Positions 42,609-63,829 of a stretch of 64,000 nt of DNA are shown in pieces. A model generated the notes under the pieces. It had not been told where the DNA came from and did no database searches. It saw only the letters and a program-made list of their open reading frames with translations. A program made the position numbers and the translations under genes. Where the stretch lies: the NCBI RefSeq assembly GCF_003853705.1, contig NZ_QTQI01000003.1, positions 186,001 to 250,000 on the forward strand, read 5' to 3'. Origin of the DNA: Burkholderia sp. Bp8992. Lineage in GTDB: Bacteria; Pseudomonadota; Gammaproteobacteria; Burkholderiales; Burkholderiaceae. Every line of letters starts with the position of its first letter. Position 1 is the first letter of the stretch.

Positions 42609-43526
42609 GCATGCGTCGCATGTCGTAGGGCGCGTCGACGGCACGAGGCATCGCCCCATACGGGGCCAGGCATCTGCTCCTGCCCGGAAAATCCGGGCAC
42701 GCCCGGTGCGAAGACGCCGTCGCCTCCAGTCGCATCCGTCCTTTAGAAATTACGGTCTCCTCTGTTTCTATCCGGAAATCCGATGTCGATGTCGATTTGG
42801 CTGCCCGTTCAATCGGCGTGCGCTCGCCGCCCCCCCTGCCGATCTAGGTCAGTTCGTTCGCGATAGATGGGTGTTTCAATCCACCGCAACGGACCGGTGT
42901 CATCGTCGTTCCACAGTTTTCGCAAGGGTGACAAATGTTCACTTTTTGATTTTCAAATCCTCTCCTAACATCTATCCATCGCAATACCCATCAAATTTAA
43001 TTCATTAAATCCGAAAATAAATTACCAAATTTTCGTCGAAACAATGGATTTTGATTTTTTAAAGATGAGCGCCATGACGGCACTCCCATCTGAAAAGCAA
43101 TCAGGCATAGCAGCGGGTTTATAAAGTAACGGCGCCCCATCGCCGGTCGTGATTTGTTCCTATCGAGATGCCGAGATGTCGAACCTCCCGAGACGATCCA
43201 TAGTCGTCAAAAGTGCCTGCCGTTGCCCAGGACATCGCTCACCCGGATCGGCCTGCGTCGCCGAGGACAAGGGTGGCATTCGCACACGCCCGTCATCCCG
43301 GAGCCGATGGGGTGATACCCGCTTCCGTAAGACGCGCGGCCATTTCACGCCCCTTCAAAATCAACTCTTCCATACGAAAAATAAACTCCACCACCTCAAT
43401 CCTTGACGATCAATTTCGGATCGAATCACTGATCGATTATGAAGTTGTTTTTACTTCAACCATAAAATTAGCATCACTACATAATTTACTCCAACAGAAC
43501 GTGATCATTTCACATGGAGCATCAAC
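42609..43526. other. 918-base AT-rich intergenic region before the adhesin
   Basis: This long region contains no convincing gene. From about 42940 to 43060 and again 43340-43520 it is markedly AT-rich against its GC-rich surroundings, with runs such as TTTTTGATTTTC and AATTTAATTCATTAAA. It is the upstream region of the adhesin gene, probably with a long leader or complex regulation. The AT content is typical of regions bound by H-NS-like silencers. Confidence 0.6.
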
Positions 43527-48491: not shown

Positions 48492-48597
48492 TCGCGGGAA
48501 AACCGATGTCCTGCAGCGATATGCGGCAGCGGCCCGCAACGAGCGATCGTTGCCGCCGCGCCGGATACGCGGCTCCTTATACGATGAGAGACTGATC

Positions 48598-49392
48598 ATG
48601 AAAATCCAATGGGTACTTGCGTTGTCTGTCGCCTTGTTTTCCGTTGCATCACTGGAAGGCTGTGCCGTCGACGGACCGCCCCGCTTTCCGGATCCGCAAT
48701 CCGCCAGCCCGAAAGGCGGCACGTTCGTGAACGTGGACAACCTGCGTAACGTCGGGCCCGGCCTGAACAAGGACCAGATGTTCGATCTTCTCGGCCCCCC
48801 TCACTTCAACGAGTGGTTCGTCGGGAGTCATGTCTGGAACTACCTGTTCGACTTCCGCCGCGGCAACGAAGTCGTCGCGTGTCAGTACCAGGTGCGATAC
48901 GACGCGCACATGAAGGTGAGCGACACCTACTGGCGCGATCCCGCATGCGCGGACTTCGTGCGGCCGAAATCGGCCGCGCCGGCAGCTGCGGCACAGCCGC
49001 CGGCCTCGACGCTCGAGCAATTCACGTTGCAGAGCGACGCGCTGTTCGCGTTCGGCAAATCGAGCGTCGAATCGATGCAGCCCGCCGGCAGGGCGCAGCT
49101 CGACGATGCAATCGAACGAATCAAGCGTCACCAGGCGATCACGCGAATCGCCGTCGTCGGTCATACCGACCGTATCGGCACCAGCGAGATCAACGACCCG
49201 CTGTCGCGCGCACGCGCGCAAACGGTTCGCAGCTATCTGATCTCGCATGGCCTGGACGGCAACGTCATTCAGGCAGACGGCGTGGGGTCGCGCGAGCCTG
49301 TCACGCATTGCCCGCCAGGCCGAAGCAGCGCCGTGATCGCGTGTCTGCAACCCGATCGGCGGGTCTCGATCACCGTAAGCGGGCGCGATTGA
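48598..49392 (+). CDS. OmpA-like lipoprotein with SmpA/BamE-like N-terminal domain
   Basis: This 264-residue protein has a lipoprotein signal with LEGC at residues 19-22, so it is probably anchored in the outer membrane. The middle region (about 45-110, with NKDQMFDLLGPPHFNEW) resembles the SmpA/OmlA fold of BamE. The C-terminal 110 residues form an OmpA-like peptidoglycan-binding domain with the Asp/Arg-rich VVGHTDRIGTSEINDPLS loop and a final VSITV strand. The ATG at 48598 is preferred over an earlier one. It lies 106 bases after the adhesin gene and probably helps place or stabilise it. Confidence 0.85.
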   Translation: MKIQWVLALSVALFSVASLEGCAVDGPPRFPDPQSASPKGGTFVNVDNLRNVGPGLNKDQMFDLLGPPHFNEWFVGSHVWNYLFDFRRGNEVVACQYQVRYDAHMKVSDTYWRDPACADFVRPKSAAPAAAAQPPASTLEQFTLQSDALFAFGKSSVESMQPAGRAQLDDAIERIKRHQAITRIAVVGHTDRIGTSEINDPLSRARAQTVRSYLISHGLDGNVIQADGVGSREPVTHCPPGRSSAVIACLQPDRRVSITVSGRD

Positions 49393-49638
49393 CGGACGGC
49401 GACGCCGGTGGCGCCAATCACGCTTCGCCCGCGTGACGGGTGCCGCCATTGACCGACAGGACGCGCTTGCGGGCAGCGGGCCGCGCATTGCGCTTCCCCC
49501 CGCGTTGCGCGCGACATCCGGCCGCCCGCCGTAACGGCCGCACGCCCGCAAAGCGCCGTACTGCTGCAGCGTAGACGAGCGGCACGGTTCGACGGCGCTT
49601 GATTCAGTTACCCGAGCGACAACCCACCAGCAATCCGG

Positions 49639-50457
49639 ATGACGACAATGAGAAGGGTCGGCGTGTATGTGGATGGAAGCAGCATCGACGCAAATGGCGG
49701 CCACCAGATGCGATACGAGGTGCTGCGCGCGCTCGCAGGCCGGGCCGACGCCACGATTCAGCGGCTGCATGCGTATCTGAGCGTCGACGAACGCCGCGCC
49801 GCGCGCTCCGCCGACTACGATGCGCGGATCAAGGGATATCAGGCGGCGCTCCGCGACAAGGGGTTCCGCGTCACGGTCAAGCCGCTCAGGCACGTTGCAG
49901 ACGAGGACGGCACCGAGACCGTCAAATCCAATTCGGATCTCGGCATGGCCGTTGACGCGCTATCCGAATCGGACCGGCTGGACACCGTGCTCGTCGCAAC
50001 CTGCGACGGCGATTTCGTCGAAGTCGTGCGAGCACTTCAGAAGAAAGGCTGCCGGGTCGAAGTCCTCGGTTTCGACAACGTGCCGTTCGAGTTGCGCGAT
50101 ACCGCCGACCAGTTCATCAGCGGCTATCTGGTCCCCGGCCTGCTTCCGGTTCGCGATGCGGCCGCCGGCTTGTCCGCCTGGGGCCAGGTCGGCTCGCGCG
50201 TGCGCGGCGTGTGCAACCGGTTCGAGCCGGATGACGGATACGGTTTCATCGCGTTCTGGGCAACGTTGCCCGATACGCCGCTGCTCGCGGCGGCCGAAAC
50301 GAGTCCGGCCTACTTTCGCGGCAGCAGTCTCCAGGATCCGTCAGTTCTCTCACGGCTGCCCTCCAGAAACACGATCCTGGAATTCGACCTTGCCATGCCC
50401 GCGAAACAGACCGGCGCGCCTGAAGCGCGCCGGATCCAGGTCGTTTCCGCCGCCTAG
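49639..50457 (+). CDS. NYN-domain (LabA-like) protein with cold-shock-like C terminus
   Basis: This 272-residue protein starts with a NYN domain (residues 5-160), a PIN-like nuclease fold: VYVDGSS with the conserved Asp near residue 11, KSNSDLGMAVDAL near 95 and ATCDGDFVEVV near 115. These acidic residues are the expected metal-binding site. The C-terminal part carries GVCNRFEPDDGYGFIAFW near 190, which resembles an RNA-binding cold-shock fold. A role in RNA processing is likely. It lies between the OmpA-like lipoprotein and the convergent CHASE2 kinase. Confidence 0.8.
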   Translation: MTTMRRVGVYVDGSSIDANGGHQMRYEVLRALAGRADATIQRLHAYLSVDERRAARSADYDARIKGYQAALRDKGFRVTVKPLRHVADEDGTETVKSNSDLGMAVDALSESDRLDTVLVATCDGDFVEVVRALQKKGCRVEVLGFDNVPFELRDTADQFISGYLVPGLLPVRDAAAGLSAWGQVGSRVRGVCNRFEPDDGYGFIAFWATLPDTPLLAAAETSPAYFRGSSLQDPSVLSRLPSRNTILEFDLAMPAKQTGAPEARRIQVVSAA

Positions 50458-50582
50458 CGGCCGATGGACCTCTGCCGGCGCCCTACGCGATGCGCAGCAG
50501 CCGCGTCGTCGCACGCCGTTGCCGCGGAGAGCGCCTGCCCCGCCTTGTGGTTTACGCAGCTCCTCCAGTACCCGCACCGGGA

Positions 50583-52769
50583 TCAACGCCCCAGCGCGGC
50601 GTCGTGATCATGCTTCGACAGAAACATGAGGAAGGTCGTGCCCTCCCCGAGCGTCGACCGGACCTGCAGTTTGCCGCCAAGCGAATCGACGACCGTCTTG
50701 ACGAACGCCAGGCCCAGTCCATGCCCGGACATCGTCGCTTTTCCGTCCAGTTGCGTGAATTCGCGAAACAGCTTTTCCTGGTCGCGCTCGGATATGCCGG
50801 CGCCATAATCCGTCACGGTGATCTTCACGTGTCGATCCGTTGCCGACAGTTCCACGTCGACCGTAGACGCTTCCCGACCGAACTTGATCGCGTTGCCGAT
50901 CAGATTGACGAATGCCCGCCGCAGCAGCTGCACATCGGCGATCGTACTGAGCCCGGGCTCCGCCATCAGGTTGACGGTCGTGGATTTCGCGCTCGCCTGC
51001 GGCAGCAGATCGTCGACGGCATCGCCAAGCACCAGTGCGGGATCCACGGCGGTCAGCTTCGGCGGCAGATTCTCGGCCCTGGCAAGAAAGAGGAAATCGT
51101 CGGACAGGCTGAGCGCGCGCGTCGCATACTGCGAGACCAGTTCCGAGAAACGTTGTGGCGTGTACCGCGACGGATCCCGCTGTATCTGGGAAACGAGCGC
51201 GAGAATCGAGGCCTGCGGAGACCGCATGTCATGCGACAGGAATCGCAAGGCCATGTCGCGCTGCCGTTCGGCCATCCGCACGGACGAGACGTCCGCGACA
51301 TGAAAGACCAGCGCATTCTCGCCGTAAACGGACGGGCGGATCGGCGCGCACTTGATCAGCAGCGAGCGGCCCCATCGGGCATTGGCAATCTCGATCCCCT
51401 GATCGAGCTGGGATTTCGTCTGCGCCGACAGCGCATCGCCATCGGGCCAGTCATCCAGCGACGCCATTGCCTGCGCGACAAATTCACTCGCCCGATGCGA
51501 CGCGGTGATCTGAAACAGCACGTCCGAGACCAGCCGTCCCACCGGCGGCCCGCCGGAAACCGAATGCTCGTCGAGATCCGCGCACCATGCGGCGATTCGC
51601 TCGTTCGCCAGCAGGACGACCCCGGCAGCCGACGCAATCAGCGTTGCCTCCGGAAGACTGTCGACCCATGCATCGATCAGCGCACGATAACGACGCACCC
51701 GCACCTCAAGATTCGCAGTCCTGTCAAGTTGCCGGCGAACCGGGTCCATGGACCGCACGGCCTCCGCCGGCTCCACATGCAGCGACGGTTCTGCAGCCAT
51801 CCGGTCCGCCAGGCGGCCAATGAAGCGCGACAACACTTCGACGCATCGCCAAAACCACAGCAAGCAGGCAAGTCCGCACATCAGCATGCCGGTGGCGGGC
51901 GGCAACGCCTCGCCTCCGAAAACGAACATGACGAACGAGATCCCCGCAATCGCACCGGCAACCCCGAGCGACGCAGCCAGGCCTGTGCGAGGACCGAACC
52001 GGAAGAGCAACAGGCACGTCAAGCAAACAACGGTCTCGTTGAAGAGCAGCACCCACGTGAGACCGATCTGGCGCGCCGGCGCATCCGATGCGCCGGCTGC
52101 CGCGACGACGTCGCCGATCGGCAAGGTAGCGTCCGGCGACACGATCGCCCCGCTGTCCGGGTTCTCGATCGCCGCGCGAATCAGGACCACGCTGCCGCGC
52201 AGACGGCTCGACGGCACCTTGCCGTCCAGCACATTGACGTACGAGTAGAGTGCGCAAGGTCCGCCCGCCTGAAACGCAGTGTCGCGCACGCAGGCGTTGC
52301 CGGCCGCCCGCGCCTGCGTCCGTCCGGCGTCGCGGCTTGCCGTCCCACCGATGGCCGAATGGCCGGCGCGAATGCGTGCGACGTCCCGCAGGCCGGTCAG
52401 GTCGAAACTGACGACCGCGACGCCGCTTCCGGCGAGCCGCTCCATCATCCGCTCCCGTGTTTCCACGCTGAACGGCCAGTCGCCCAGGCGCCCGGTCGTA
52501 CGATCGTCGACCATGATCACCGCGAGCGGCTTGATGGCTCCGTGTCGGACGGACTGCCACACGAACCCGAACCACGCCCGGTCGATGTGATGCAACGCGG
52601 ACGTCGCTGTCAGCACCACGCATACCAGAACAAGCGCAGACGTCAGGCGCATCCATTCCATCGAGCGTGGCGAGGACGCATGCCCGGTCGCCCGTTTTCC
52701 CTCATCACATGAACGGCGCCGCCCCGGCCCCAAAAATCTTCCGAACATGTCGATTAGATGACGCCCCAT
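50583..52769 (-). CDS. CHASE2-domain sensor histidine kinase
   Basis: This kinase of about 728 residues has an N-terminal membrane segment (about residues 40-60), a CHASE2 sensor region on the periplasmic side (VIMVDDRTTGRLGDWPF, then VVSFDLTG), and three further helices near 235-320. A PAS-like domain follows. The kinase core shows FLSHDMRSPQAS with His513, RAFVNLIGNAIKFG (N box), DYGAGI and GHGLGLAFV. The start is uncertain: ATG codons at 52769 and 52661, and others upstream, all lack strong ribosome sites. It has no receiver and could signal to the OmpR-type regulator at 41871. Confidence 0.85.
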   Translation of the reverse strand: MGRHLIDMFGRFLGPGRRRSCDEGKRATGHASSPRSMEWMRLTSALVLVCVVLTATSALHHIDRAWFGFVWQSVRHGAIKPLAVIMVDDRTTGRLGDWPFSVETRERMMERLAGSGVAVVSFDLTGLRDVARIRAGHSAIGGTASRDAGRTQARAAGNACVRDTAFQAGGPCALYSYVNVLDGKVPSSRLRGSVVLIRAAIENPDSGAIVSPDATLPIGDVVAAAGASDAPARQIGLTWVLLFNETVVCLTCLLLFRFGPRTGLAASLGVAGAIAGISFVMFVFGGEALPPATGMLMCGLACLLWFWRCVEVLSRFIGRLADRMAAEPSLHVEPAEAVRSMDPVRRQLDRTANLEVRVRRYRALIDAWVDSLPEATLIASAAGVVLLANERIAAWCADLDEHSVSGGPPVGRLVSDVLFQITASHRASEFVAQAMASLDDWPDGDALSAQTKSQLDQGIEIANARWGRSLLIKCAPIRPSVYGENALVFHVADVSSVRMAERQRDMALRFLSHDMRSPQASILALVSQIQRDPSRYTPQRFSELVSQYATRALSLSDDFLFLARAENLPPKLTAVDPALVLGDAVDDLLPQASAKSTTVNLMAEPGLSTIADVQLLRRAFVNLIGNAIKFGREASTVDVELSATDRHVKITVTDYGAGISERDQEKLFREFTQLDGKATMSGHGLGLAFVKTVVDSLGGKLQVRSTLGEGTTFLMFLSKHDHDAALGR

Positions 52770-53351
52770 CGATATTGCATTGATCGACGTTTGAAATAAC
52801 CCTATCCAACGCCAAGAACTCATTTCAAAAAGCATTGACAAACGATGCAAACCGAACGCGCATTACGACTTATCCACCGCTCTCCACCCTGCACGAGCCT
52901 CGCCGACACGCCCTGCCATTCTGACTCGGCCCATTACATTTCGCAATTAACATGCAATTATTATACGTTATTTATTTTCGCAATTAAATTTAATATTTAA
53001 TTACAATTAAATTTACATTCAATGAAAATTCTACCCCACCCTCATCAGCCAGCACGAACTACTGAATTTCGGTATATTCAAGCGCAATACCGGTAAAAAT
53101 TGCGCCAATCCGAATCCAAAAAAAACCAACACGCCATCATAATCAATATCAATTAATCAAACACAAGCATCAATGCAAAAAGATATTTGCACTCACAATT
53201 ATAATTCAATAAAAACCAAGCCAACGATACGACTATTGGTAACTGAATTTACATTTGTTCGTTTTTCACAAGTTGAAAATTTTCAACTCACTCCATAGAA
53301 TGAATCAACCGAAAACATCTTCCCCATATTTCAATCGGCCTACCCTACTTC
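52770..53351. other. AT-rich intergenic region, no gene seen
   Basis: From about 52930 to 53340 the sequence is strongly AT-rich, with long A/T runs (such as TTATACGTTATTTATTTTCG and AATTTAATATTTAATTAC). It separates the divergent CHASE2 kinase and EAL genes and must hold both promoters. No open frame is convincing. It resembles the stretch ahead of the adhesin gene. Confidence 0.6.
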
Positions 53352-54155
53352 ATGAGTCACCCATTCGCGTCAACTGATCCACTCGACGATGCCGCGCGAG
53401 GACTTCGTCAGGACGAGTTCTTTTTCCTCCTCCAACCCAAATTTGCACTCCACGGGGTTCGCCTGGCGGGCTTCGAATACCTGATGCGCTGGCATCATCC
53501 GGAGCGTGGGGTCCTGGAACCCGCGTCGTTCATCAGCATGATCGAGGATTCATGCCTTGCCACCGGATTCACGGACCTGCTCACCCGGCGCGCGACGTGC
53601 AGGCTGGCGCAGTGGAAGGCGGCGGGGTACGGCGAGTTGTCGCTCGCGATCAATTTGTCGCCGTCCGAGCTCGGGCACGCGGAGTTTCCCGCGCAACTTT
53701 CCGCACGGCTGGCGTCGCTCGGGCTCGAGCCAGGCCGTGTCGAAATCGAACTGACCGACGTCGTCCCCCCCGCCCGGCTCGATTGGCTGGTGGAAGCCAT
53801 CCATGCGGCGCAGGCGATCGGCGTGCGCATCGCACTGGATGACTTCGGAGCCGGCTTCAACTCGCTGACGCTCCTGCAGCAGTTGCCGGTGGATATCGTC
53901 AAGTTCGATCGATCGCTGATTCGCGAGGTGCTGCAAAACGGCGAGTCCATGCGGATTGTCGAAACCCTTGTGCAGCTTGCGAAAAGTCATGGCAAACACG
54001 TTGTAATGACGGGCATCGAAACCGCCGAACAGTTCGAATGGGCAAGCACACTGCCGGACGTCGACGGCCAGGGTTTCTACCTCGGCGAGCCGCTTCACGA
54101 AACCGATGTCGACGCTTTCATTGCCGAGCATCATCGCCGGATCCGTTCCTCCTAG
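53352..54155 (+). CDS. EAL-domain protein with altered active site
   Basis: This 267-residue protein is a single EAL domain without sensor or GGDEF parts. Several signature parts are present: FEYLMRW (EYL for EAL) near residue 41, INLSPSE near 99, EIELTD near 132, LDDFG near 160 and VKFDRS near 180. But in the EGVE segment the first Glu is replaced by Thr (MTGIET near 215). That Glu is needed for cyclic-di-GMP hydrolysis in studied enzymes, so activity may be lost, leaving a binding or protein-contact role. It is divergent from the CHASE2 kinase. Confidence 0.85.
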   Translation: MSHPFASTDPLDDAARGLRQDEFFFLLQPKFALHGVRLAGFEYLMRWHHPERGVLEPASFISMIEDSCLATGFTDLLTRRATCRLAQWKAAGYGELSLAINLSPSELGHAEFPAQLSARLASLGLEPGRVEIELTDVVPPARLDWLVEAIHAAQAIGVRIALDDFGAGFNSLTLLQQLPVDIVKFDRSLIREVLQNGESMRIVETLVQLAKSHGKHVVMTGIETAEQFEWASTLPDVDGQGFYLGEPLHETDVDAFIAEHHRRIRSS

Positions 54156-54482
54156 CATCCACGCGCCTGCAGGCCGATCTCGCCCCATCGTCGGAGCACC
54201 GGGTGCCGCAACACGGCGAACGATGCGACATGCAGCGACGCCTTCAGAACGCGGGGCACCGTTTACGCTCCGATCAGGCGGTTCTTTCGAGCCGCTGCTT
54301 GCGACATGCAGCCAGCATAAGACGGCGTTCCGAGGACGCAAAGTGAACTTTTGTCACTTTCTCGAGCAAATCCGCAGGATTCCCACATATCAGGACAACG
54401 CCGGTTCGGCGTACCCGAGACAGCCGCGATCCGCGCCCACGTCGCACCGTACCGACGCGCACGCCGATACGGTGCGCGTCGA
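54156..54482. other. Intergenic stretch with a hairpin after the PKS-cluster operon
   Basis: This 327-base gap lies between the convergent EAL and KAS III genes. A perfect nine-base inverted repeat (GACGCGCAC at 54454-54462 with GTGCGCGTC at 54472-54480) sits right after the KAS III stop. It has no U-run on either strand, so it is at most a weak terminator. No gene was found. Confidence 0.45.
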
Positions 54483-55475
54483 CTACCACCGGATCAACGC
54501 CGCGCCCCACGTGAATCCCGAGCCCATTGCAGGCGTCAGAACGAGATCGTTCTCCTTGATGCGCCCGTCGGATACGGCTTCGCAGAGCGCGAGCGGAATC
54601 GACGCTGCCGATGTGTTGCCGTGCTTGCTGACGGTGAGGACGACCTTCTCCATCGGGAGGTTCAGTTTTCCGCCGAGCGTTAGCACGATCCGCTGGTTTG
54701 CCTGATGCGGGACGATCCAGTCGAGGTCGTCCTGGGTCAGGCCGTGTGCCGCGAGCGCTTCCTGCGACGCGTCGGCGAGGTTGACGACGGCATGCAGAAA
54801 TACATCGCGACCCTCGAGATGCATCTTGCCGGCGCTCTGCGTCGATGACACCCCGCCGTCCGTGTGAATCTTGTCCCAGTACCGTCCGTCCGAATGCAGA
54901 TGCGTGGAGAGCACGCCGCGCGGCTTGTCGCCTTCGTTGCGTTCGCCGCGCAACACCAGCGCACCCGCACCGTCGCCGAACAGCACACAGCTATTGCGGT
55001 CCTGCCAGTCCACGATACGTGACATCGTTTCCGCCCCGATCACCAGCGCGGTGCGGGCCTGGCCCAGACGGATCATGTTGTCGGCGACCGACAGCGCGAA
55101 GACGAAGCCCGAACAGACTGCCTGCACGTCGAACGCAGCACCGCGCCGCACGCCGAGCGCTTCCTGAACACGGACGGCCGTCGCGGGCATCGTGCGATCG
55201 GGCGTGCAGGTCGCGAGCACGATGAGATCGACCTCGGCTGCGTCGATGCCGGCGCGATTCAGTGCGGCCCTGGCGGCGCCGATCGCGAGATCGGACGTGT
55301 TCTCGCCGTGCGCCGCGATTCTGCGCTCACGGATGCCCGTGCGCTGCGTGATCCACTCGTCCGTGGTGTCGACCATGCGCGCGATGTCATCATTCGTCAT
55401 GCGGTGCTCGGGCAACGCGGAACCGCAGCCGACGACGCGCGACGTCCATGCGTCCGCGCGATTGATTTGCACCAT
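54483..55475 (-). CDS. Beta-ketoacyl-ACP synthase III (KAS III-like)
   Basis: This 330-residue KAS III has the catalytic triad Cys121 (AVCSGF), His257 (VPHQAN) and Asn287 (HGNTSA), plus the closing [16 protein letters not shown] starts chains by condensing an acyl-CoA with malonyl-ACP. The start at 55475 follows GGAGTACGGAAG; the frame extends further upstream but that part shadows the ACP gene. It is the last gene of the CCR/PKS operon, 67 bases after the free-standing ACP. Here it more likely builds a short beta-ketoacyl-ACP for the cluster than serves primary fatty-acid synthesis. Confidence 0.9.
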
Positions 55476-55542
55476 CTTCCGTACTCCGATTGAAGTCGAT
55501 GAGGCGCCGGCCGCCTGAACGCTCGCTGCCGGCGTACACGTA

Positions 55543-55872
55543 TTACCAGCTTCCGACGTTCGCGTCTTCACCCGGCTCCGCGGCCGGGATCGTGTCCTTC
55601 CGTTGCAGCGAGACGAGATGCGCCGCCAGCGAATTGAAGGTCGGATAGTCGTAAAGGACCGTATCGTCGATCTTGATTCCGAGCCGCTCTTCGAGGAAGA
55701 ACGCGAGTTCGACGGAATGCATCGAATCGAATCCGGCGTCGGCGAAGGTCTGCTCGAGATCGGTCGGCACCTGAAGATTGTTTGCTTCGGTCCACTCTTG
55801 AATCCACGCAAGAATGGCTTCGGCAGTCACGTTCGACCCGTTGACGGCCGCGGCTTGAATTTGATCGCTCAT
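55543..55872 (-). CDS. Free-standing acyl carrier protein
   Basis: This 109-residue acidic protein has the phosphopantetheine site [18 protein letters not shown] with Ser50 and a following helical bundle ([13 protein letters not shown]). It is slightly longer than typical acyl carrier proteins at both ends. The ATG at 55872 is preferred over an upstream Met. It lies between the PKS (80 bases after its stop) and the KAS III gene, so it probably carries the substrate made by KAS III. It is distinct from the carrier domain built into the PKS. Confidence 0.9.
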
Positions 55873-55952
55873 GGTATCGATTCCTTGAAGTCGGATTGAG
55901 AACGATGAAGGCACGGCGGCAACGCCGCGCCCGGGAAACCGAAACGCAGTGC

Positions 55953-58900
55953 CTATGCGGGCGTCGCATGCACACGCGGTTCGTTGTCGGCGCAGCCTCC
56001 ACCGAGAAAGCGAGCCAGACGCTGCACGGAAGGCTCGCGCACGATGGAGTTGTGATCGTCATCGAACACACCCACCGCCACGCCGCCGCGCGCGAGGCGG
56101 CCCAGATGCTGTTCCACCTGGGTGCTCGACACTCCCCGCTTGTCGCGTGCGGCAAGCGCGTATCCGATGCGCGTATGCACCTGTCGGGGTTGATGACAGG
56201 CGAGCGCCGCCGCGCTCGCGGCGTGCAGACGCGCGATATGGTCGAACGTCGCGGGGTGGGCACGGCGCCGCACGTCGGCGAGGTAGAAGTCCTGGTCGAG
56301 CATGGCGTCGAAACGCGGATCGGCGAGCCATCGATCGACCGTTTGCCTGCCGTCGCCGGACGCGAGATCATCGGCCAGTGCACGCAACCGCAGGGTGAAT
56401 TCGCCGTCGTGGAGCGGGCTGTCGACGATCATCAGCGGCGGCGCAGTTTCGCCCTCCGCCTCCCATTGCGCGGCCATTTCATGCGCGACGATCCCGCCGA
56501 ACGACCAGCCGCCGAGCAGATCGGGCTGTCTGCCGTGTATTGCGAGCAAGGCCGCGCGATAGCGCGACGCCAGTTGCGCGATCGAAAGATACTCGGGTGC
56601 GTGGCCCTGGTCCGCGTACGGATGGCGGATCGCGACGACCGTCGGATCGCCGGGCCATGACGAAGCCAGTTCCTGATAACAGAGCACGTTTCCGCCGACC
56701 GGGTGGACGAGCGCGACGAGCGGCCCGGCCCCGTCGCGCAGCGTCACGACCAGCTCGCGGTCATCGTCCGTCCCGGCGGATTTCCGCATGTCGTTCGACA
56801 CCGCTTCGCGCGCCGGCATGGCGCCGTTCGTCGTGCCGAACCACGTCGCCAGCGTCCGGAGCGATGCCCCGCGCACAAGCATGGAGATCGGCGGCATCGT
56901 GCCGAGCTGTTGATGCAGGCGAACGCGCAGTTCCGTCAATGCAAGCGAGTCGAAGCCCTGGCTGACGAGCGAAAGACCGTCGTCGAGCACGACGGTATCC
57001 GGTGCGACCGTCGCCGCGACCGCACGCAGCATCGCGAGCGTCTGCGCGGCATCCGCCGGTGCGGCCTCGACGCGATCCGCCGCTCCCGGTCCCGGCACCC
57101 CGGTCCCGTCGTTCGACGCGTTGCCGCCTTGTCGTCGCACCGCGCCGCGCGCGGCCTCCGCAAGGTCCGGGAACGGCAGCTCGAAGCGCTCCGGATCGAA
57201 CGAGTAACCCGGCGCATCGGCCGGTCGCGGCGCCTTGCCGTACAGCTTGCTCCATGCGATCTTCTGCCCTTCGCTGTAAAGGCGTGCGCAGCCATGCGCG
57301 AAGCCGGTCGCCTCGGCTTCCTCGTCTCCCTCCGGACCGTCCGCGAGCGACGCGATCGCACAGTGCCAGTCGCCCCCCGCCGCGGCGCGTGCGAGCTTGG
57401 CCAGTGCCGCGCCGGGGCCCACTTCGACGAAGATCGTCCTGCCGTCCGACGCGGCCAGCAGCGCGTCGTGAAAACGCACCGGTTGCTCGACAAGATCGAG
57501 CCAGTGCTCGACGCCGGCGATCGCGTCGGTCGCGATGTCGCCCGTGAGCGTGGAGACGATCGGAATCGACGGCGGCGCAAACGTCAGCGGTTCGAGCGCT
57601 CGCCGGAACGCTTCGCGCATCGAACGCAACATCGGCGAATGGCCCGGCGTACCGTAGGTCTTGAGCAGCGACACCCGCTTGCCCGCGGCGACCATCGCGT
57701 CATGCACCCGCCCGACCGCTTCCGGCGTGCCGCTCACGACCGTCTGCCCCGGCCCGTTGATGCCGGCGACGAACAGATCCGTACCGAACGCGAACCGCCC
57801 CGCGAATTCGTCGACGCTGACGGCGACGGCGAGCATCGCGCCGCGCGGCGTCTCGGTATCGAACAGGCGACCACGCGCCTCCACTGCCTTGAGGCCATCG
57901 CCAAGCGACATCACGCCGCCGATCACCGCGGCCACGTGCTCGCCGAGCGAATGCCCGATCAGCAGGTCGGGCTGTACGCCCAGCTCCATCCATGTCCGCG
58001 CCAGCGCGTAGCACACGACGAAATGGGCAAGTTGCCCCGGATGATGGCGCACCGGTTGCGCGCTGTGGCCGAGAATCGCATCGAGCACGTCGCGCGCCGT
58101 CTCGCCGTCGAGCGCGCGCAGGCACACGTCCGCATGTTTGCGGAACAATCCGTTGCCGTTGTAGAGGTTCCCTCCGACGCCTGGCTGCCAGGCTCCCTGG
58201 CCTGGCACCAGAAACGCGAGGCGGGGCTTGCGCGGGTGTTCGCCGGCGTGCCATCCCCCGGACGGATTCTCCGCGAGAAAGTCGTCGAGCGCGGCAACGA
58301 AGTCCGCTTTCGTCGTGCCGACCAGCGCAACGCGATGGTCGAAATGATCGCGTCGTACGTTCGACGTGTGACACGCATCGCGCAGTGGTGCGGACATGTC
58401 CGCGAGCCAGGCCCGCCATGCCGACGCGACACGCCGGCGTGCGTCGGGCGAACGCCCGGAAAGCGTCAGCACGCGTTCGCGGGCAATCGGAGCGCCGAGG
58501 TCTGCTACGCGCTCCGGCGCGACCAGAATCAGGTGGACATTGGTCCCGGTGATGCCGAAACCGCTCACGCCGACGACCGTATCGCCCTCGGCGAGCGGCG
58601 CTCCCTCGCGCGGAATCTCGAGCTGCGAACCTTCCCAGTGAAAACGCGGGTTCGGTGTCTCGAAGTTCACCTGCGCGGGTACATGGCGGTGCCGCAGGAT
58701 CAGCATCGCCTTGATGAAGCCGGCCATGCCCGCGGCTCCCTCCAGATGCCCCAGCTGGGACTTCACCGAGCCGACGAGGATCGGCTTGTCGCGCACGACG
58801 GCGCGAGCATAGACGTTGCGCAACGCGGAAAGCTCGATCGGATCGCCGAGCGCCGTGCCCGTCCCATGCGCTTCCACGTAGGCGACCGCTTCCGGACGAA

Positions 58901-59843
58901 CGCCCGCGCGCGTCATCGCCCGGCGAATGACGGCTTCCTGAGCCGCACCGTTGGGCGCGGTCAGGCCGTTGCTCGCGCCGTCGCTGTTCACTGCCGAACC
59001 GGCCAGCACCGCATCGACACGGTCGCCATGCGATAGCGCGTCGGCAAGCCGCTTCATCACGATCACGCCGCCGCCTTCGCCACGAATGTAGCCGTCGGCG
59101 TTCGCGTCGAAGGGACGGCACCGGCCGGAGGGGGACATCGCCTGGAGCCGCGCAATGCCGATCGTTTCCTCCGGCCCCAGGATCAGGTTCACCCCGCCTG
59201 CGATCGCCACGTCGCACTCGCCGGCCTGCAGGCTCTGCGCGGCAAGATGGATCGCGACCAGCGAAGACGAACAGGTCGTATCGACGAAGATTGCCGGTCC
59301 GTTCAATCCCAGTATGTGCGCGACTCGCCCGGGCGCCATCGCGCGCAGGTTGCCGAGCTTCGAATAGGTGGTGATGCGGGCGGGATCGCCGGACCAGACC
59401 GTGCGCCGGCCATAGTCCGCCTCGCCGATCGTCATGAATACCCCGACGTTCGTGCCGCGCAGCCCGCCGGGTGCGACGCCTGCGTTCTCGAGCGCGCCCC
59501 AGGTCAGCTCGAGCATCCAGCGCTGTTGCGGATCCATCTCCATGGCCTCGGCCGCCGAAGTACGGAACAGCTTGCGATCGAAGCGGAACGGATCGTCGAC
59601 ATAGCCGGCCACGCGTGAATACGTGGTGCCGGGCTCGTCCGTATCCGGCGAATAAAACGCGTCGATATCGAAGCGTTCGCGCGGTGTTTCGCAAATGGCC
59701 GTCTGCCCTGAATTCAGCAGTGCCCAATAGCTCGATGCACTGGATGCCCCGCCGGGGAAGCGGCATGACATGCCGATGACGGCGACGCGTTGCGGATGTG
59801 GGTTCGATTGGTCCATCGCATTTTCTCGGCCAGAGGCGTTCAT
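55953..59843 (-). CDS. Single-module type I polyketide synthase KS-AT-ACP-TE
   Basis: This 1296-residue enzyme has one module. The KS shows Cys191 (DTTCSSS), His326 (EAHGTGT) and His366 (LGHLEG). The AT shows Ser632 (GHSLGE) with specificity motif TPGH at 732-735 in place of HAFH or YASH. The ACP shows Ser966 (GFDSLAL). The TE shows Ser1114 (GWSFGG) and His1264 (DDDHNS). Ketoreductase, dehydratase and methyltransferase domains are absent, so one extension leaves the beta-keto group. The start is taken at 59843, just after the CCR stop; an ATG at 59816 is an alternative. Genes upstream supply the extender. Confidence 0.9.
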   Translation of the reverse strand: MNASGRENAMDQSNPHPQRVAVIGMSCRFPGGASSASSYWALLNSGQTAICETPRERFDIDAFYSPDTDEPGTTYSRVAGYVDDPFRFDRKLFRTSAAEAMEMDPQQRWMLELTWGALENAGVAPGGLRGTNVGVFMTIGEADYGRRTVWSGDPARITTYSKLGNLRAMAPGRVAHILGLNGPAIFVDTTCSSSLVAIHLAAQSLQAGECDVAIAGGVNLILGPEETIGIARLQAMSPSGRCRPFDANADGYIRGEGGGVIVMKRLADALSHGDRVDAVLAGSAVNSDGASNGLTAPNGAAQEAVIRRAMTRAGVRPEAVAYVEAHGTGTALGDPIELSALRNVYARAVVRDKPILVGSVKSQLGHLEGAAGMAGFIKAMLILRHRHVPAQVNFETPNPRFHWEGSQLEIPREGAPLAEGDTVVGVSGFGITGTNVHLILVAPERVADLGAPIARERVLTLSGRSPDARRRVASAWRAWLADMSAPLRDACHTSNVRRDHFDHRVALVGTTKADFVAALDDFLAENPSGGWHAGEHPRKPRLAFLVPGQGAWQPGVGGNLYNGNGLFRKHADVCLRALDGETARDVLDAILGHSAQPVRHHPGQLAHFVVCYALARTWMELGVQPDLLIGHSLGEHVAAVIGGVMSLGDGLKAVEARGRLFDTETPRGAMLAVAVSVDEFAGRFAFGTDLFVAGINGPGQTVVSGTPEAVGRVHDAMVAAGKRVSLLKTYGTPGHSPMLRSMREAFRRALEPLTFAPPSIPIVSTLTGDIATDAIAGVEHWLDLVEQPVRFHDALLAASDGRTIFVEVGPGAALAKLARAAAGGDWHCAIASLADGPEGDEEAEATGFAHGCARLYSEGQKIAWSKLYGKAPRPADAPGYSFDPERFELPFPDLAEAARGAVRRQGGNASNDGTGVPGPGAADRVEAAPADAAQTLAMLRAVAATVAPDTVVLDDGLSLVSQGFDSLALTELRVRLHQQLGTMPPISMLVRGASLRTLATWFGTTNGAMPAREAVSNDMRKSAGTDDDRELVVTLRDGAGPLVALVHPVGGNVLCYQELASSWPGDPTVVAIRHPYADQGHAPEYLSIAQLASRYRAALLAIHGRQPDLLGGWSFGGIVAHEMAAQWEAEGETAPPLMIVDSPLHDGEFTLRLRALADDLASGDGRQTVDRWLADPRFDAMLDQDFYLADVRRRAHPATFDHIARLHAASAAALACHQPRQVHTRIGYALAARDKRGVSSTQVEQHLGRLARGGVAVGVFDDDHNSIVREPSVQRLARFLGGGCADNEPRVHATPA

Positions 59844-59848
59844 CGGGT

Positions 59849-61126
59849 CTAGTGGCGCGTTGCCGCGGCGAGATCGTCGCTGCTGCTCGCCTGGACGAGC
59901 ACGGCCATGTTGCCCGGCAGGTGCCGGTTCGCGCGAATCTTCGCGTGCGCCTCCGGCAAGCGGCTCCACGGAAACACTTCCGACAGGCACGGATCGATCT
60001 TGCCGCTCATCACGAGACGGTTCGCCTGTGCGGCTTCCTTGAGGCTCGCGAAGTGACTGCCCTGGATGCGCTTCTGTCGCATCCACACGTAGCGCGCATC
60101 GCAGGTCAGGTCGTAGCCGCTCGTCGCCGCGCAGAACACGACCATGCCTCCGCGCTTCACGACATAGCAGGACGGTGCGAACGTATTCCGGCCCGGGTGT
60201 TCGAACACCATGTCGACGTCGCGCTTCTCGCCGAGCGCGTCCCAGATCGCTTTTCCGAACTTCTTGACCGCATCGACATAGGCCGCGTACGCGGTCTGCG
60301 CATCGACCGGCGGTGGCGCGCCCCAGCACGAAAAATTCGAGCGATTGATCGCGCCCACCGCGCCGAGACGCTTGACGAACTCGATCTTCGAATCGTCGGA
60401 GACCACGGCGACGGGGCGCGCCCCAACCAGCGCCGCGAGCTGGATCGCCATCGTTCCGAGCCCGCCCGCCGCCCCCCATACGAGTACCGATTGCCCCGCC
60501 GAAAGCACGTGCGGCTTGTGGCCGAACAGCATCCGATACGCGGTAGCGAGCGTGAGCGTATAGCAGGCGCTGGCAGCCCATGTGAGGTGTTTCGGGCGCG
60601 GCATCAGTTGAGTCGACTGGACGCGCGCGAACTGCGCGAACGAGCCATGAGACGTTTCGTAACCCCAGATCCGTTGCGACGGCGACAACATCGGATCGCC
60701 GCCGTTGCATTCCTCGTCGTCGCCGTCGACCTGCGAACAGTGCGCGACCACCTCGTCGCCGACTCTCCACTTCTTCACGTTCGACCCGACGGCCCAGACG
60801 ATGCCCGCGGCGTCCGAGCCCGTGATGTGATAGGGATCGTCATGCAGGTCCAGCACCGAGAACGGCTGACCGAGGGCGGCCCACACGCCGTTGTAGTTGA
60901 CGCCGGCTGCCATCACGAGGACCAGAACGTCGTCGGGGCCGAGTGACGGCACGTCGACGATCTCGTTTGTGAATGCCCGCTGCGGCTCCCCATGGTTCTC
61001 GCGGCGAATCGTCCACGCGTGCATTCGCTTCGGCACCACACCCAACGGAATCGGCTCACCGATCTCGAACAACTCCGGCTGGTTGCTTCTCGCCTCGACA
61101 ACCAATTCAAATATTTTGGTATCCAT
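59849..61126 (-). CDS. ccr: Crotonyl-CoA carboxylase/reductase (CCR)
   Basis: This 425-residue medium-chain dehydrogenase matches the CCR family closely: GVNYNGVW near residue 75, GSDAAGIVWAVG near 103, CSQVDGDDEECNGGDPM near 130-146, GYETSHGSFAQF near 155, YTLTLATAYRMLFGH, then QKRIQGSHFASL near 355. CCR reduces and carboxylates an enoyl-CoA with NADPH and CO2 to give an alkylmalonyl-CoA, such as ethylmalonyl-CoA from crotonyl-CoA. The gene directly precedes the PKS with six bases between stop and start. This makes it the likely maker of the PKS extender unit. Confidence 0.92.
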   Translation of the reverse strand: MDTKIFELVVEARSNQPELFEIGEPIPLGVVPKRMHAWTIRRENHGEPQRAFTNEIVDVPSLGPDDVLVLVMAAGVNYNGVWAALGQPFSVLDLHDDPYHITGSDAAGIVWAVGSNVKKWRVGDEVVAHCSQVDGDDEECNGGDPMLSPSQRIWGYETSHGSFAQFARVQSTQLMPRPKHLTWAASACYTLTLATAYRMLFGHKPHVLSAGQSVLVWGAAGGLGTMAIQLAALVGARPVAVVSDDSKIEFVKRLGAVGAINRSNFSCWGAPPPVDAQTAYAAYVDAVKKFGKAIWDALGEKRDVDMVFEHPGRNTFAPSCYVVKRGGMVVFCAATSGYDLTCDARYVWMRQKRIQGSHFASLKEAAQANRLVMSGKIDPCLSEVFPWSRLPEAHAKIRANRHLPGNMAVLVQASSSDDLAAATRH

Positions 61127-61200
61127 ATCAATATTCCTGTAAGAGTTGATTCGATAAACAGTGCACTCGTGCTAGGGCGCCCGTGACGACGCCATCCGCA

Positions 61201-61959
61201 TCACGCCGCGGCCATTCCGCCGTCCACCGACAACGCGGTACCGGTCATGAAAGAGGAGGCGTCGCATGCGAGGAACGTGACAGCCTCCGCAATTTCCGTT
61301 TCCGTCCCCAAGCGACCGATCGGATGAAAACGCTTGATCTGATCGGTCATGCGGGTCTCGTCGAGAAACTTTTCCACCATCGCGGTTGCAACGAACGCAG
61401 GGCAAATCGCATTGACGCGGATATTCTGCTTCGCATATTCGAGCGCAGCCGCTTTCGTCAGTCCGATGATGCCCGCCTTCGAAGCGTGATATCCGCAGCC
61501 GCCGAATGCCGATGCGACGAGGCCGTAAGTGGACGACATATTGACGATGGAACCGCCGCCCGTTTTCAGCATTGCCGGAATTTCGTACTTCATCGAAAGG
61601 AACATGCCCTTCAGGTTGATATCGACGACATGGTCCCAGCTCTCCACGTCGGTATCGGCTACGGTTTTGCCGAATGCCTCCACGCCGGCGTTATTGAAGG
61701 CGACATCGAGCCGGCCGAATTCACGCATGGTCTCCTCGACCATGCGGGCGCAGTCTTCGGCCCTGGACACATCGGTCCTCACGAACAGCGCTTCGCCGCC
61801 GGCCTTGCGGATTTCCTCGACCACCGCCAGACCTTCGTCGATACGGCGCGATGCGATGGCAACCCGCGCACCTTCGCCGGCAAACAGCAATGCCGTCGTC
61901 CGTCCAATCCCGGAACTCCCCCCGGTCACGAGGGCAACCTTTTCAAGAAGCTTTTTCAC
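61201..61959 (-). CDS. Short-chain dehydrogenase (FabG-like)
   Basis: This 252-residue classical SDR has TGGSSGIG near residue 13, NNAG near 88, Ser in NMSSTYG near 140 and YHASKAG near 155, and ends with the FabG-type MTGTALSVDGG. The GTG at 61959 follows GGGAGAGC and gives a normal length; an ATG at 61992 and a still longer frame are less likely. It is the first gene of the CCR/PKS operon, 74 bases before CCR. It could reduce a beta-ketoacyl intermediate to the hydroxy form, which the MaoC protein could then dehydrate. Confidence 0.9.
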   Translation of the reverse strand: MKKLLEKVALVTGGSSGIGRTTALLFAGEGARVAIASRRIDEGLAVVEEIRKAGGEALFVRTDVSRAEDCARMVEETMREFGRLDVAFNNAGVEAFGKTVADTDVESWDHVVDINLKGMFLSMKYEIPAMLKTGGGSIVNMSSTYGLVASAFGGCGYHASKAGIIGLTKAAALEYAKQNIRVNAICPAFVATAMVEKFLDETRMTDQIKRFHPIGRLGTETEIAEAVTFLACDASSFMTGTALSVDGGMAAA

Positions 61960-62178
61960 TGTGCTCTCCCGGTTGCACTGAGATGCATGCATCGTTGCCG
62001 CTGTCCGGCAATCCCGTTTTTCAGATGGAAAATGTAATTTCCGGCTTGCAACGGAAATGATTCTAGATGGCGAAAAGCACGTACCGATGAAAAGTGAAAA
62101 AAGTTCAAATTTGATTTTCGGCCGGACGAATATCATCGCTCACGTCACTCCATTTCGCGTCCAATCCACGGGCTCACT
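61960..62178. promoter_or_regulatory. Divergent promoter region of the CCR/PKS cluster
   Basis: These 219 bases separate the minus-strand operon (SDR, CCR, PKS, ACP, KAS III) from the plus-strand pair (CMD-like, MaoC). The stretch around 62020-62120 is AT-rich, with GAAAAAAGTTCAAATTTGAT. No regulator gene lies in the cluster itself, and no clear operator symmetry beyond this was found. Confidence 0.5.
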
Positions 62179-63303
62179 ATGCGTGCGAATACGATCACCC
62201 GGCATGAACTTGGCATGTCCGTCATCCACGCGATCGGCGACGAAGGTTTCAACAGCCTCAGCGCGGCGCTCGACCGCCTCGACCCAGATTTCAAACGCTT
62301 GCTCGTCGAGGGCGCGTATGCCGACATCATTGCCCGGCCCAATCTCTCGCTGAAATATCGGGAACTCGTGACGGTCGCGGTTCTCGCAACGATGGGCAAT
62401 GCCGATTCCGCGCTGAAATACCATGCGGGCGGCATGCTGAATACCGGCTGGGCACCGCAAGCGGTGCTCGAAACGGTCTTCGATACGCTCTACTATGCAG
62501 GCGTGCCGGTGGCCACGGCCGGCATCCGTCATCTCGTGGCGTTGTTACGCGAGCGTGACATCGATATCGGTCGCGACGTCGATCGTCTCGGACGATACGA
62601 ATCGGCAACCGCACACATGCTCGAGCGGCGGCAACGGCCATTCGACGCGCTGACGCCAAAGGAGCGCCGGCTCGCCACACTCGCCATCGTCATCGCTCGC
62701 GAAAATCGTCACGACGAGGTTCGGGTCCACTTGAACGCATGTCTGCATGTCGGCTGGACGCGCAGCGAACTGACTGAAGTGCTGATTCAACTCACCGGCT
62801 ATATCGGCTGGCCGCTCATCCTGCCCGTGTCGCGCATTGCGCTCGACATATTCGACGAGTTCGCCGCGACACAGGGCGGCGCAACGGTCGGACAAGCGGA
62901 CGCATCGACCGGACGGAATGCGCTGGAGCGCGATCCGTGTATGCCGGAAGCGTCGGCCGGCCGGCCCGAGATGCCGGCGGCGATCGCAGGTTGTCTCGAT
63001 CGGATGGCCGACGCTGCGTCACGCGTCGAATCGGTCGAACACGTGAAGGCACGGCACCTGACGGCGATCGCGTGCCTGACCTGCCTTGCCCGAAATGCAG
63101 ATGCCGACGCGCTCGCCACGCATATCGTCGACGCGCGCTTGTCGGGCACGTCGCAGCACGAGATCGTCGACGCCATCGTCGGCGCACTGCCTCATGCCGG
63201 CGTGCTCGCCGTGCAATGGGCGCTGGCTGTGGCAAGCCGATCGTTTGCATCGACAGATCCGCATGCGGCGCGCGAGCACGACAACGTGGAGGCATCGGGA
63301 TGA
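62179..63303 (+). CDS. Triple carboxymuconolactone-decarboxylase-like protein
   Basis: The 374-residue protein holds three successive AhpD/CMD-like units. Each has the family's His followed by a hydrophobic helix, Gly and Glu: YHAGGMLNTGW with His82, VHLNACLHVGW with His184, and THIVDARLSGT with His315. The CxxC of redox-active AhpD proteins is absent in all three, so peroxidase activity is unlikely. Decarboxylase or lactone-related chemistry, or a scaffold role, is possible. One or two units per protein is usual; three in a row is uncommon. It is divergent from the CCR/PKS operon and upstream of the MaoC gene. Confidence 0.8.
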   Translation: MRANTITRHELGMSVIHAIGDEGFNSLSAALDRLDPDFKRLLVEGAYADIIARPNLSLKYRELVTVAVLATMGNADSALKYHAGGMLNTGWAPQAVLETVFDTLYYAGVPVATAGIRHLVALLRERDIDIGRDVDRLGRYESATAHMLERRQRPFDALTPKERRLATLAIVIARENRHDEVRVHLNACLHVGWTRSELTEVLIQLTGYIGWPLILPVSRIALDIFDEFAATQGGATVGQADASTGRNALERDPCMPEASAGRPEMPAAIAGCLDRMADAASRVESVEHVKARHLTAIACLTCLARNADADALATHIVDARLSGTSQHEIVDAIVGALPHAGVLAVQWALAVASRSFASTDPHAAREHDNVEASG

Positions 63304-63358
63304 CGACGCTCGAACCCTCCACCCACACCATGCTGCACGAACGACACAGGAGCAAACG

Positions 63359-63829
63359 ATGAACGACGAAGGCGGATACGACCTCGAGGACCTGATGCCC
63401 GGCATGAACGCATGTTTCTCGAAAACCCTGTCCGAGCACGACGTGCTCCTGTTTGCGAGCGCGTCCGGCGACCGGAATCCCGTGCACCTCGACGAAACCT
63501 ATGCACAGCAAACGCGCTTCGGCGGTCGCATCGCGCACGGCATGCTGTCCGCGTCGGTGATCTCGGCGGCGATCGCAACGCATCTGCCGGGGCCCGGCTC
63601 GATCTATCTGTCGCAGGACCTGCAGTTCCGCCGCCCGGTCAAGCTCGGTGAAACGGTTTGCGCGACCGTGACAGTCAAGGAGATACTCGCGAGCCGGCGT
63701 CGGGTCGTGCTGGAAACCTGCTGCCACGTGAACGGGCACGTGGTCGTGGAAGGCACGGCGGTGGTCATGCCCACCAACGCGGCAGCGCGGTCGCAAGAAG
63801 CATCGACCGCACGAGATCAGGAAGCCTGA
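63359..63829 (+). CDS. MaoC-family (R)-hydratase (PhaJ-like)
   Basis: This 156-residue hot-dog-fold protein has the hydratase-2 signature SGDRNPVHLDETYAQQTRFGGRIAHGML in outline (residues 35-62), with the catalytic Asp and His in the pattern D-x-NPVH. PhaJ-type enzymes interconvert enoyl-CoA and (R)-3-hydroxyacyl-CoA. AGGAG lies before its ATG, 55 bases after the CMD-like gene. In this cluster it could dehydrate a hydroxyacyl chain to the enoyl-CoA that CCR then carboxylates. Confidence 0.9.
   Translation: MNDEGGYDLEDLMPGMNACFSKTLSEHDVLLFASASGDRNPVHLDETYAQQTRFGGRIAHGMLSASVISAAIATHLPGPGSIYLSQDLQFRRPVKLGETVCATVTVKEILASRRRVVLETCCHVNGHVVVEGTAVVMPTNAAARSQEASTARDQEA

Follow-up and report, generated by a model that had tools for sequence, protein, structure and literature searches.

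Background

Antimycin biosynthesis in Streptomyces includes a compact polyketide unit. According to the available text of PMC3869250, AntD is a single-module polyketide synthase (PKS) with ketosynthase (KS), acyltransferase (AT), acyl carrier protein (ACP) and thioesterase (TE) domains, supplied with a 2-carboxylated acyl-CoA by the crotonyl-CoA carboxylase/reductase (CCR) AntE, and the discrete ketoreductase AntM acts on the beta-keto group bound to the AntD PKS. The AT motif of AntD is given as MPAAAH in the available part of PMC6117356. By gene content, AntD/AntE/AntM is the closest characterised unit to the cluster described here, which lies at 54483-63829 of a 64,000-nucleotide stretch from Burkholderia sp. 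Bp8992 (NCBI RefSeq assembly GCF_003853705.1, contig NZ_QTQI01000003.1, forward-strand positions 186,001 to 250,000), referred to in full as the window. Like the portion of the antimycin unit described in those sources, the window cluster has a KS-AT-ACP-TE single module and a CCR, together with a discrete reductase that may be the counterpart of AntM; among solved structures AntE ranks second in similarity to its CCR, and the AntD motif is present in the AT most similar to its own. In contrast to antimycin, no non-ribosomal peptide synthetase or aminosalicylate genes were found among the seven cluster proteins and six neighbours scanned with profiles (two neighbours with the cluster proteins, four later). 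Further differences are that the acyl starter is probably carried on a free ACP, that a beta-ketoacyl-ACP synthase III (KAS III), a MaoC-type hydratase and a carboxymuconolactone decarboxylase (CMD)-like protein are additional, and that the AT motif is TPGH rather than MPAAAH.

We propose, with a probability of about 0.55, that this cluster encodes a dedicated, regulated pathway which condenses an acyl starter with a single alkylmalonyl unit, with a linked kinase/regulator pair as its switch. From its gene content, the product is best read as a short metabolite of fatty-acid type with an alpha branch, which may be a signal.

In the mycolate condensation carried out by Pks13 and FadD32, an ACP and KS-AT-ACP-TE form one chain, the starter is loaded by a fatty-acyl-AMP ligase (FAAL) and the alpha-alkyl-beta-keto product is reduced by a short-chain dehydrogenase/reductase (SDR). 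The Burkholderia cluster resembles it in combining an ACP with KS-AT-ACP-TE, in the predicted FAAL loading of the starter in some relatives and in the predicted reduction of an alpha-alkyl-beta-keto intermediate by an SDR; it differs in that the extra ACP is a separate gene and in having a CCR rather than a carboxylase. Against the Pks13 model NF040607 the window PKS scored 630.2 bits, under the cut-off of 2100. The window CCR belongs to the same CCR family as that of the ethylmalonyl-CoA pathway, but in the sampled Burkholderiaceae genomes CCR was found only beside this PKS.

The neighbourhood of the cluster has a separate precedent. The available text of PMC3404963 describes a trimeric autotransporter adhesin cluster in B. 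cenocepacia in which trimeric adhesins, an outer-membrane lipoprotein, kinases and regulators lie together, and cites its kinase BCAM0227 as a sensor of the fatty-acid signal BDSF. An adhesin, a lipoprotein, a kinase and a regulator are similarly grouped in the window; however, no PKS is named in that text.

Gene content and conservation of the cluster

The initial annotation had placed seven genes in this interval, and all were found as open frames with matching domains in Pfam and NCBIfam profile searches (coordinates given are those from the likely starts of the open frames). On the minus strand, in order of transcription, are an SDR-family reductase (61201-61959; PF13561, adh_short_C2, 224.1 bits), the CCR (59849-61126; TIGR01751, 568.6 bits, above its cut-off of 378.55), the PKS (55953-59843), the free ACP (55543-55872; PF00550, 47.7 bits) and the KAS III, a FabH-type ketoacyl-ACP synthase (54483-55475; TIGR00747, 389.7 bits, cut-off 292.1), separated by 74, 5, 80 and 67 bp, respectively. 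Divergent from these, on the plus strand and 219 bp from the SDR gene, is the gene for the CMD-like protein (62179-63303; PF02627, 92.1 bits, two stretches), followed after 55 bp by that for the MaoC-type hydratase/dehydratase (63359-63829; PF01575, MaoC_dehydratas, 83.1 bits).

The PKS matched KS, AT, PP-binding and thioesterase domains in Pfam, and no ketoreductase, dehydratase or enoylreductase domain was detected in it at E 0.001, in agreement with its description as a module without reductive domains. All eight active-site stretches sought in KS, AT, ACP and TE are present, the TE having GGWSFGG and a terminal DDDHNSI stretch. Across 17 sequences, the Cys, His and Asn of the VCSG, PHQAN and NTSA stretches of KAS III are invariant, as are, in 17 MaoC sequences, the G, D, N, P, V and H of GDRNPVH. 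The CMD-like protein had been called a triple CMD: two domains are clear, and a third reached 17.9 bits in the window protein, under the cut-off of 23, although its homologue in L010 has three CMD stretches. With 109.4 bits against TIGR02425 (cut-off 155.7), it is a member of the CMD superfamily but not PcaC by score.

A first scan with the CCR, using one genome per species, found 252 relatives, of which the best 80 loci were kept. Ten of the first 12 related loci combine CCR, PKS, KAS III, ACP, CMD and MaoC; the SDR accompanies them in nine, and in the remaining one, L008, a contig end truncates the locus on the SDR side. L009 and L010 have CCR with PKS plus a varied gene set. The remaining 68 loci gave no match to PKS, KAS III, ACP, CMD or MaoC, some of them having only SDR matches of 30-49%. 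With those added later through genome searches (G013, G038, G074, G237, G164, G408 and G411), the full set comprises 21 loci, namely the window, a second B. arboris strain (L081) and 19 loci from other genomes, with 22 related PKSs. The CCR adjoins the PKS in all 21, while KAS III and SDR are each present in 16, MaoC in 17 and CMD in 15; CMD accompanies KAS III in 14 of its 15 loci. The gene set is thus real and conserved beyond chance. Individual loci vary: G013 has two PKSs and one CCR, the G011 PKS is split over two overlapping open reading frames, and the G164 copy looks to be in decay, as its CCR matches over only 222 residues and the locus gave no SDR, CMD or MaoC.

The cluster is rare. 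CCR occurs in 12 of 398 Burkholderiaceae genomes, one copy in each, and the PKS in 13 of 398 drawn alike, the extra one being G164; as only the best two to six candidates per genome were scored in family-level searches (the best four for CCR), absences there are not proof. Within the genus Burkholderia, five of 65 genomes have the PKS at ≥ 55% identity, and three more, which bring the tally to eight, have 42% relatives without the TE part. The PKS was also found in three of 17 genomes of the order of G010, and in a class-level sample it was found in one of 369 genomes, that one being the centre genome itself. Plasmid records gave 281 matches to the PKS at E 1e-100. The single one covering > 80% of the PKS is from Burkholderia arboris, and the next among those listed matches at 41% over 69%.

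The initial annotation knew of no named Burkholderia pathway with this gene set, and none that is characterised was found in a literature search which most subscription journals lay outside the reach of. The genome mining that it had suggested accordingly gives a set conserved over related loci, with no characterised product found, in which the CCR stands beside the PKS in relatives.

The extender unit

That the CCR belongs with the PKS is borne out by its distribution. In each of the 11 genomes behind the first 12 loci, CCRs and PKS clusters are equal in number (G008 having two of each), and in all 12 CCR-bearing Burkholderiaceae genomes it adjoins this PKS, which supports a CCR dedicated to the PKS. 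Its best solved match is 4gi2 (604.7 bits), which we take to be the Rhodobacter sphaeroides enzyme of the ethylmalonyl-CoA pathway, a crotonyl-CoA enzyme, followed by AntE (4y0k, 417.3 bits). For the AT the best solved match is 5yda, presumably the splenocin AT, which carries the run MPAAAH.

The AT motif is TPGH in 22 of 22 PKSs (TPGHT in G009, TPGHS in all others), compared with the malonyl motif HAFH in three other Burkholderia PKSs of 41-43% identity, around which no CCR match was found within 4-6 kb. Ethylmalonyl ATs generally have XAGH, where X is F, T, V or H, according to the available text of PMC7496768. The TPGH motif appears non-malonyl, in line with the branched extender initially predicted; since it is near but not identical to XAGH, ethylmalonyl is a likely guess only. 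A single extension with an alkylmalonyl unit, as first suggested, is probably right.

The starter unit and the discrete enzymes

Loci without KAS III are informative about the starter. There are five (G008b, G009, G038, G408 and G411), and in all but G008b a FAAL is found fused to an ACP homologous to the free ACP of the window; in G008b there are a free ACP and a different AMP-binding ligase. The fusion was recognized by similarity in G009, G010, G038, G408 and G411, and by domain scan in G009; only G010 of the 21 loci has both KAS III and FAAL-ACP. As FAAL-ACP replaces KAS III in these relatives, the free ACP is probably the carrier of the starter and KAS III its supplier. Both SDR and MaoC are kept in three of the loci without KAS III (G009, G038 and G008b), so they are probably not merely partners of KAS III and do more than make the extender.

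Genes which could supply an enoyl-CoA vary among loci. An acyl-CoA oxidase gene lies beside the G009, G038 and G237 clusters and the second PKS of G013, and an acyl-CoA dehydrogenase gene beside those of G010, G408 and G411. The smallest relatives, G408 and G411, consist of CCR, FAAL-ACP, PKS and acyl-CoA dehydrogenase. From this gene content, their scheme reads as activation of one fatty acid as the starter, with desaturation of another acyl-CoA and its carboxylation by CCR, and condensation of the two. The cluster on L011, a record titled Mycobacterium sp. KBS0706, falls with the G408 and G411 clusters, whose genomes share its GTDB order; its CCR neighbours are alphaproteobacterial and the organism name on the record may be wrong.

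Several related clusters have additional genes. In the G009 cluster the acyl-CoA oxidase and MaoC genes are separated by that for a cytochrome P450 (L009:16453-17721), likely a tailoring step. In both G008 clusters (L008 and L010) a DJ-1/PfpI-type domain stands ahead of the CMD protein in the same frame, identified with Pfam on L010 and by similarity on L008. The composite G013 locus (L107-L109) has, at 23-43 kb of the joined stretch, a second, diverged PKS (approximately 54%) with a second KAS III, ACP and SDR; it also has an acyl-CoA oxidase, a POR-type oxidoreductase of 1208 residues and a Rieske oxygenase, and one CCR for both PKSs.

A linked two-component system

The conserved neighbourhood reaches past the interval 54483-63829 to genes at 41871-54155, and a two-component system there, a repeat shared with the cluster and the antimycin precedent had all been missed by the initial annotation. 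On the plus strand are a PhoB/OmpR-type response regulator (41871-42608; Response_reg and Trans_reg_C), whose best NCBIfam match, PhoB (TIGR02154), reached 159.1 bits, under the cut-off of 296.2; a YadA-type trimeric autotransporter adhesin (43527-48491) with YadA head, stalk and anchor; and an EAL-domain protein (53352-54155; PF00563, 190.1 bits). On the minus strand is a CHASE2-type sensor histidine kinase (50583-52850; HATPase_c 89.6 bits, CHASE2 25.7 bits, just below the 26.3 cut-off). A gene for an OmpA-type lipoprotein is in the same stretch as the adhesin and regulator. The usual motifs of EAL domains are EALxR and AEGVET; the window protein has FEYLMR and TGIET in their place, and because of these deviations the domain may be non-catalytic.

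New here is that the cluster usually occurs with genes for a kinase of the CHASE2 type, a regulator resembling PhoB and an EAL protein, and that it often has a direct repeat in common with the promoter of that regulator. Thirteen of the 21 loci, spanning two well-separated PKS clades, have both kinase and regulator in the surrounding stretch; the EAL gene is nearby in 12 loci and a YadA match in nine. In a tree, the kinases of cluster loci separate with full support from two relatives without PKS, and the regulator tree is mostly unresolved (two of 22 inner branches well supported). Among the 65 Burkholderia genomes, a kinase of ≥ 53% identity and a regulator of ≥ 72% occur in exactly the five that have the PKS at ≥ 55%, the next-best being 42% and 57%, respectively; four of those five also have the EAL protein at ≥ 70%. 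In the 398 genomes of the family, with a cut-off set after the genus result (E ≤ 1e-86, ≥ 66%), the regulator was found in 12 and the PKS in 13, with 11 common to both.

A direct repeat at cluster and regulator promoters

The gap between the divergent SDR and CMD genes contains a direct repeat, TTCA-N6-TTCA with an A-rich centre, that is conserved in nine aligned loci. The window copy (62092-62113, plus strand) and that of G002 have a degenerate first half-site. A matrix was built from seven of the nine aligned sites, two near-duplicates being dropped, and used to scan the loci with the SDR/CMD gap, and so the training site of the window, masked. An operator-like copy that was not in training, at 41722-41743 on the plus strand, starts 149 bp before the response regulator and has the second-best score of the 64 kb window (24.8 bits).

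Outside the training gap there are 15 sites of ≥ 22 bits over 12 loci, with at least one in 10 of the 12, compared with a mean of 0.16 and a maximum of three for 300 column-permuted matrices; sites in close relatives are not independent. Four of the 15 precede the regulator (in the window, G001, G074 and G237; the G002 site, at 21.96 bits, just misses), and another six fall at promoters of CCR, acyl-CoA oxidase or SDR genes in G009, G237 and G038. In loci unused for training, the repeat in the SDR/CMD gap scored 34.7 bits (G007) and 27.8 bits (G006). G010, G164, G408 and G411, which lack the regulator, have no site of ≥ 20 bits at their loci. OmpR/PhoB-type regulators bind direct repeats of 10-11 bp, and we infer that the linked regulator binds this one.

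Counted over whole genomes as an exact word, TTCANAAAANTTCA has 28 matches in 18 PKS genomes, 15 of which fall at PKS loci, and eight in 16 genomes without PKS; the reversed word has four in all. The form TTCAYAAAAGTTCA, selected after the matches were seen, has 13 matches in the 34 genomes counted, all in PKS genomes and eight at PKS loci. Two off-locus copies, in G007 and G008, are directly before the regulator of an EAL-kinase-regulator trio that is far from the PKS, and another, in G237, is 75 bp before the start of a classical autotransporter (L190:6645-9737), matching the adhesin theme. Two more lie ahead of an orthologous gene of approximately 300 residues in G007 and G008. These orthologues (L187:6208-7407 and L188:6679-7581) are away from the cluster and 88% identical over 288 residues, and the G007 copy of the repeat is inside the called frame, before the aligned part. 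They have sub-threshold FabA/FabZ-like matches only and may be a further regulon member.

Other elements are present. A second conserved block precedes the EAL gene in the kinase/EAL gap and is not the same repeat. At 54338-54359 and 42926-42947 of the window there is an inverted repeat, AAGTGA-N7-TCACTT or near it, which is related to the direct repeat and of a type also seen in G001, G002, G013, G074, G038 and G008b; it may be a second type of operator or a terminator-like element.

Proposed pathway and alternatives

In the proposed pathway, CCR would convert a 2-enoyl-CoA, most simply crotonyl-CoA drawn by the MaoC hydratase from the (R)-3-hydroxyacyl-CoA pool, to alkylmalonyl-CoA, probably ethylmalonyl-CoA. 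The TPGH acyltransferase would load this unit onto the ACP of the PKS and the KS would condense it with the acyl chain brought by the free ACP, coming from KAS III here and from a fatty-acyl-AMP ligase in some relatives. The resulting alpha-alkyl-beta-keto thioester would be reduced in trans by the SDR, as by AntM for AntD, and perhaps dehydrated before release by the TE. The CMD protein may act late, perhaps as a decarboxylase of the beta-keto acid. As the operon and the regulator promoter have the same kind of repeat, the kinase/regulator pair is most likely the switch of the pathway.

A number of observations weigh against this proposal. TPGH itself does not appear as a published ethylmalonyl signature in the available text of the literature compared. 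As SDR and MaoC are not near the PKS in G164, G237, G408 and G411, reduction in trans is not universal, and G008b is the weakest of the three loci that keep them without KAS III since G008 also has a second cluster with KAS III. The link to the regulator is incomplete: G006 and G164 have the PKS but gave no hit to the regulator at E 1e-60 (beside the G006 KAS III there is a distantly related regulator, 39%, and the repeat is present there with no regulator orthologue), G010, G408 and G411 are without the regulator, and G316 has the trio and the repeat with no PKS match. The hypergeometric value for the co-occurrence of regulator and PKS in the family, 1e-18, ignores descent, and the genomes are related. 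Of the strong repeat sites, five of 15 are at neither a cluster nor a first-regulator promoter, three of these preceding a second regulator by 400-430 bp (G003, G004 and G005). Position alone is not significant: seven of the 12 top matches lie in the chosen promoters, and 47 of 300 permuted matrices do at least as well, their mean being 4.8. For the G008 clusters, whose regulator is elsewhere in the genome, the best repeat scored 17.0 bits, one cluster having its SDR side cut.

One rival reading is that the two-component and EAL genes belong to an adhesin island and are merely co-located with a PKS whose product is an ordinary, unrelated metabolite. Related regulators occur with YadA-type genes and without PKS in G058, G029 and G064, the G316 trio has no PKS, and G004 has a second kinase-EAL pair beside an adhesin; the B. 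cenocepacia adhesin cluster, with its kinases and regulators (available text of PMC3404963), is of this kind. However, the stretches from G009, G038, G005 and G011 have kinase and regulator close to the PKS and gave no YadA match (that of G005 begins at a contig end), and in G007 the trio is approximately 270 kb from the PKS with the repeat at both. G008, where the trio is on another contig than the PKS, has the repeat at the regulator and not at the PKS clusters. On this evidence co-location alone is somewhat unlikely; it was kept as a rival since relatives with YadA and no PKS exist.

The chemistry may also run differently. In a scheme that follows the initial annotation, KAS III, SDR and MaoC would build an enoyl chain on the free ACP for carboxylation by CCR, the starter would be an ordinary acyl-CoA, and the TE would release an unreduced alpha-alkyl-beta-keto acid. 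Sets of KAS III, 3-hydroxyacyl dehydrogenase and CCR do supply extenders in actinobacteria. KAS III, ACP, SDR and MaoC occur together in 13 of the 21 loci, with a fourteenth, G008a, having lost its SDR side at a contig end, and such co-occurrence also fits this scheme. Nevertheless, SDR and MaoC remain in G009 and G038, which lack KAS III and where the acyl-CoA oxidase could supply the enoyl-CoA; conversely, an acyl-CoA oxidase accompanies KAS III and ACP in G237 and at the second PKS of G013, so KAS III would not be required for the enoyl group there. The replacement of KAS III by FAAL-ACP in four of five loci makes its place in an extender line doubtful, and release of the keto acid unreduced is doubtful too, given the discrete reductase that acts on the PKS-bound beta-keto group in the antimycin unit (available text of PMC3869250). 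Taken as a whole, we regard this scheme as unlikely.

Two further readings were rejected. CCR sets often serve large PKSs, and the cluster might have supplied an extender to another assembly line and had no product of its own; the PKS, however, has its own TE, and no second match to it was found in 35-40 kb around the small G408 and G411 clusters, making this very improbable. Still more remote is that the CCR is that of the central ethylmalonyl-CoA pathway and stands beside the PKS by chance, to which its best solved match, 4gi2, would point; it was rejected on the location of the gene and the occurrence of one CCR per PKS cluster, and the other genes of that pathway were not searched for.

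The dedicated, regulated pathway could be extended to a novel type of cell-to-cell signalling circuit, a speculative step that we consider a little less probable again than the initially annotated chemistry. The PKS and its private CCR would make a small alpha-branched signal, either an acid or, after decarboxylation by CMD, a ketone; the CHASE2-type kinase would sense it, the regulator would activate its own gene, the synthase operon and adhesins through TTCA-N6-TTCA, and the EAL protein would tie in cyclic-di-GMP. BDSF provides a precedent for such a signal, and the main alternative is an ordinary regulated metabolite.

Conclusions

The cluster represents a pathway that is rare, conserved and, so far as the literature searched shows, uncharacterised, with a CCR and a single PKS module making up a self-contained unit. 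Its relatives span from a four-gene version (CCR, FAAL-ACP, PKS and acyl-CoA dehydrogenase) to one with two PKSs, and reconstitution should be straightforward for the small ones. Through the linked regulator and its predicted operator, the cluster could be switched on or off directly to find its product, and one could ask whether that product is a signal governing adhesion.

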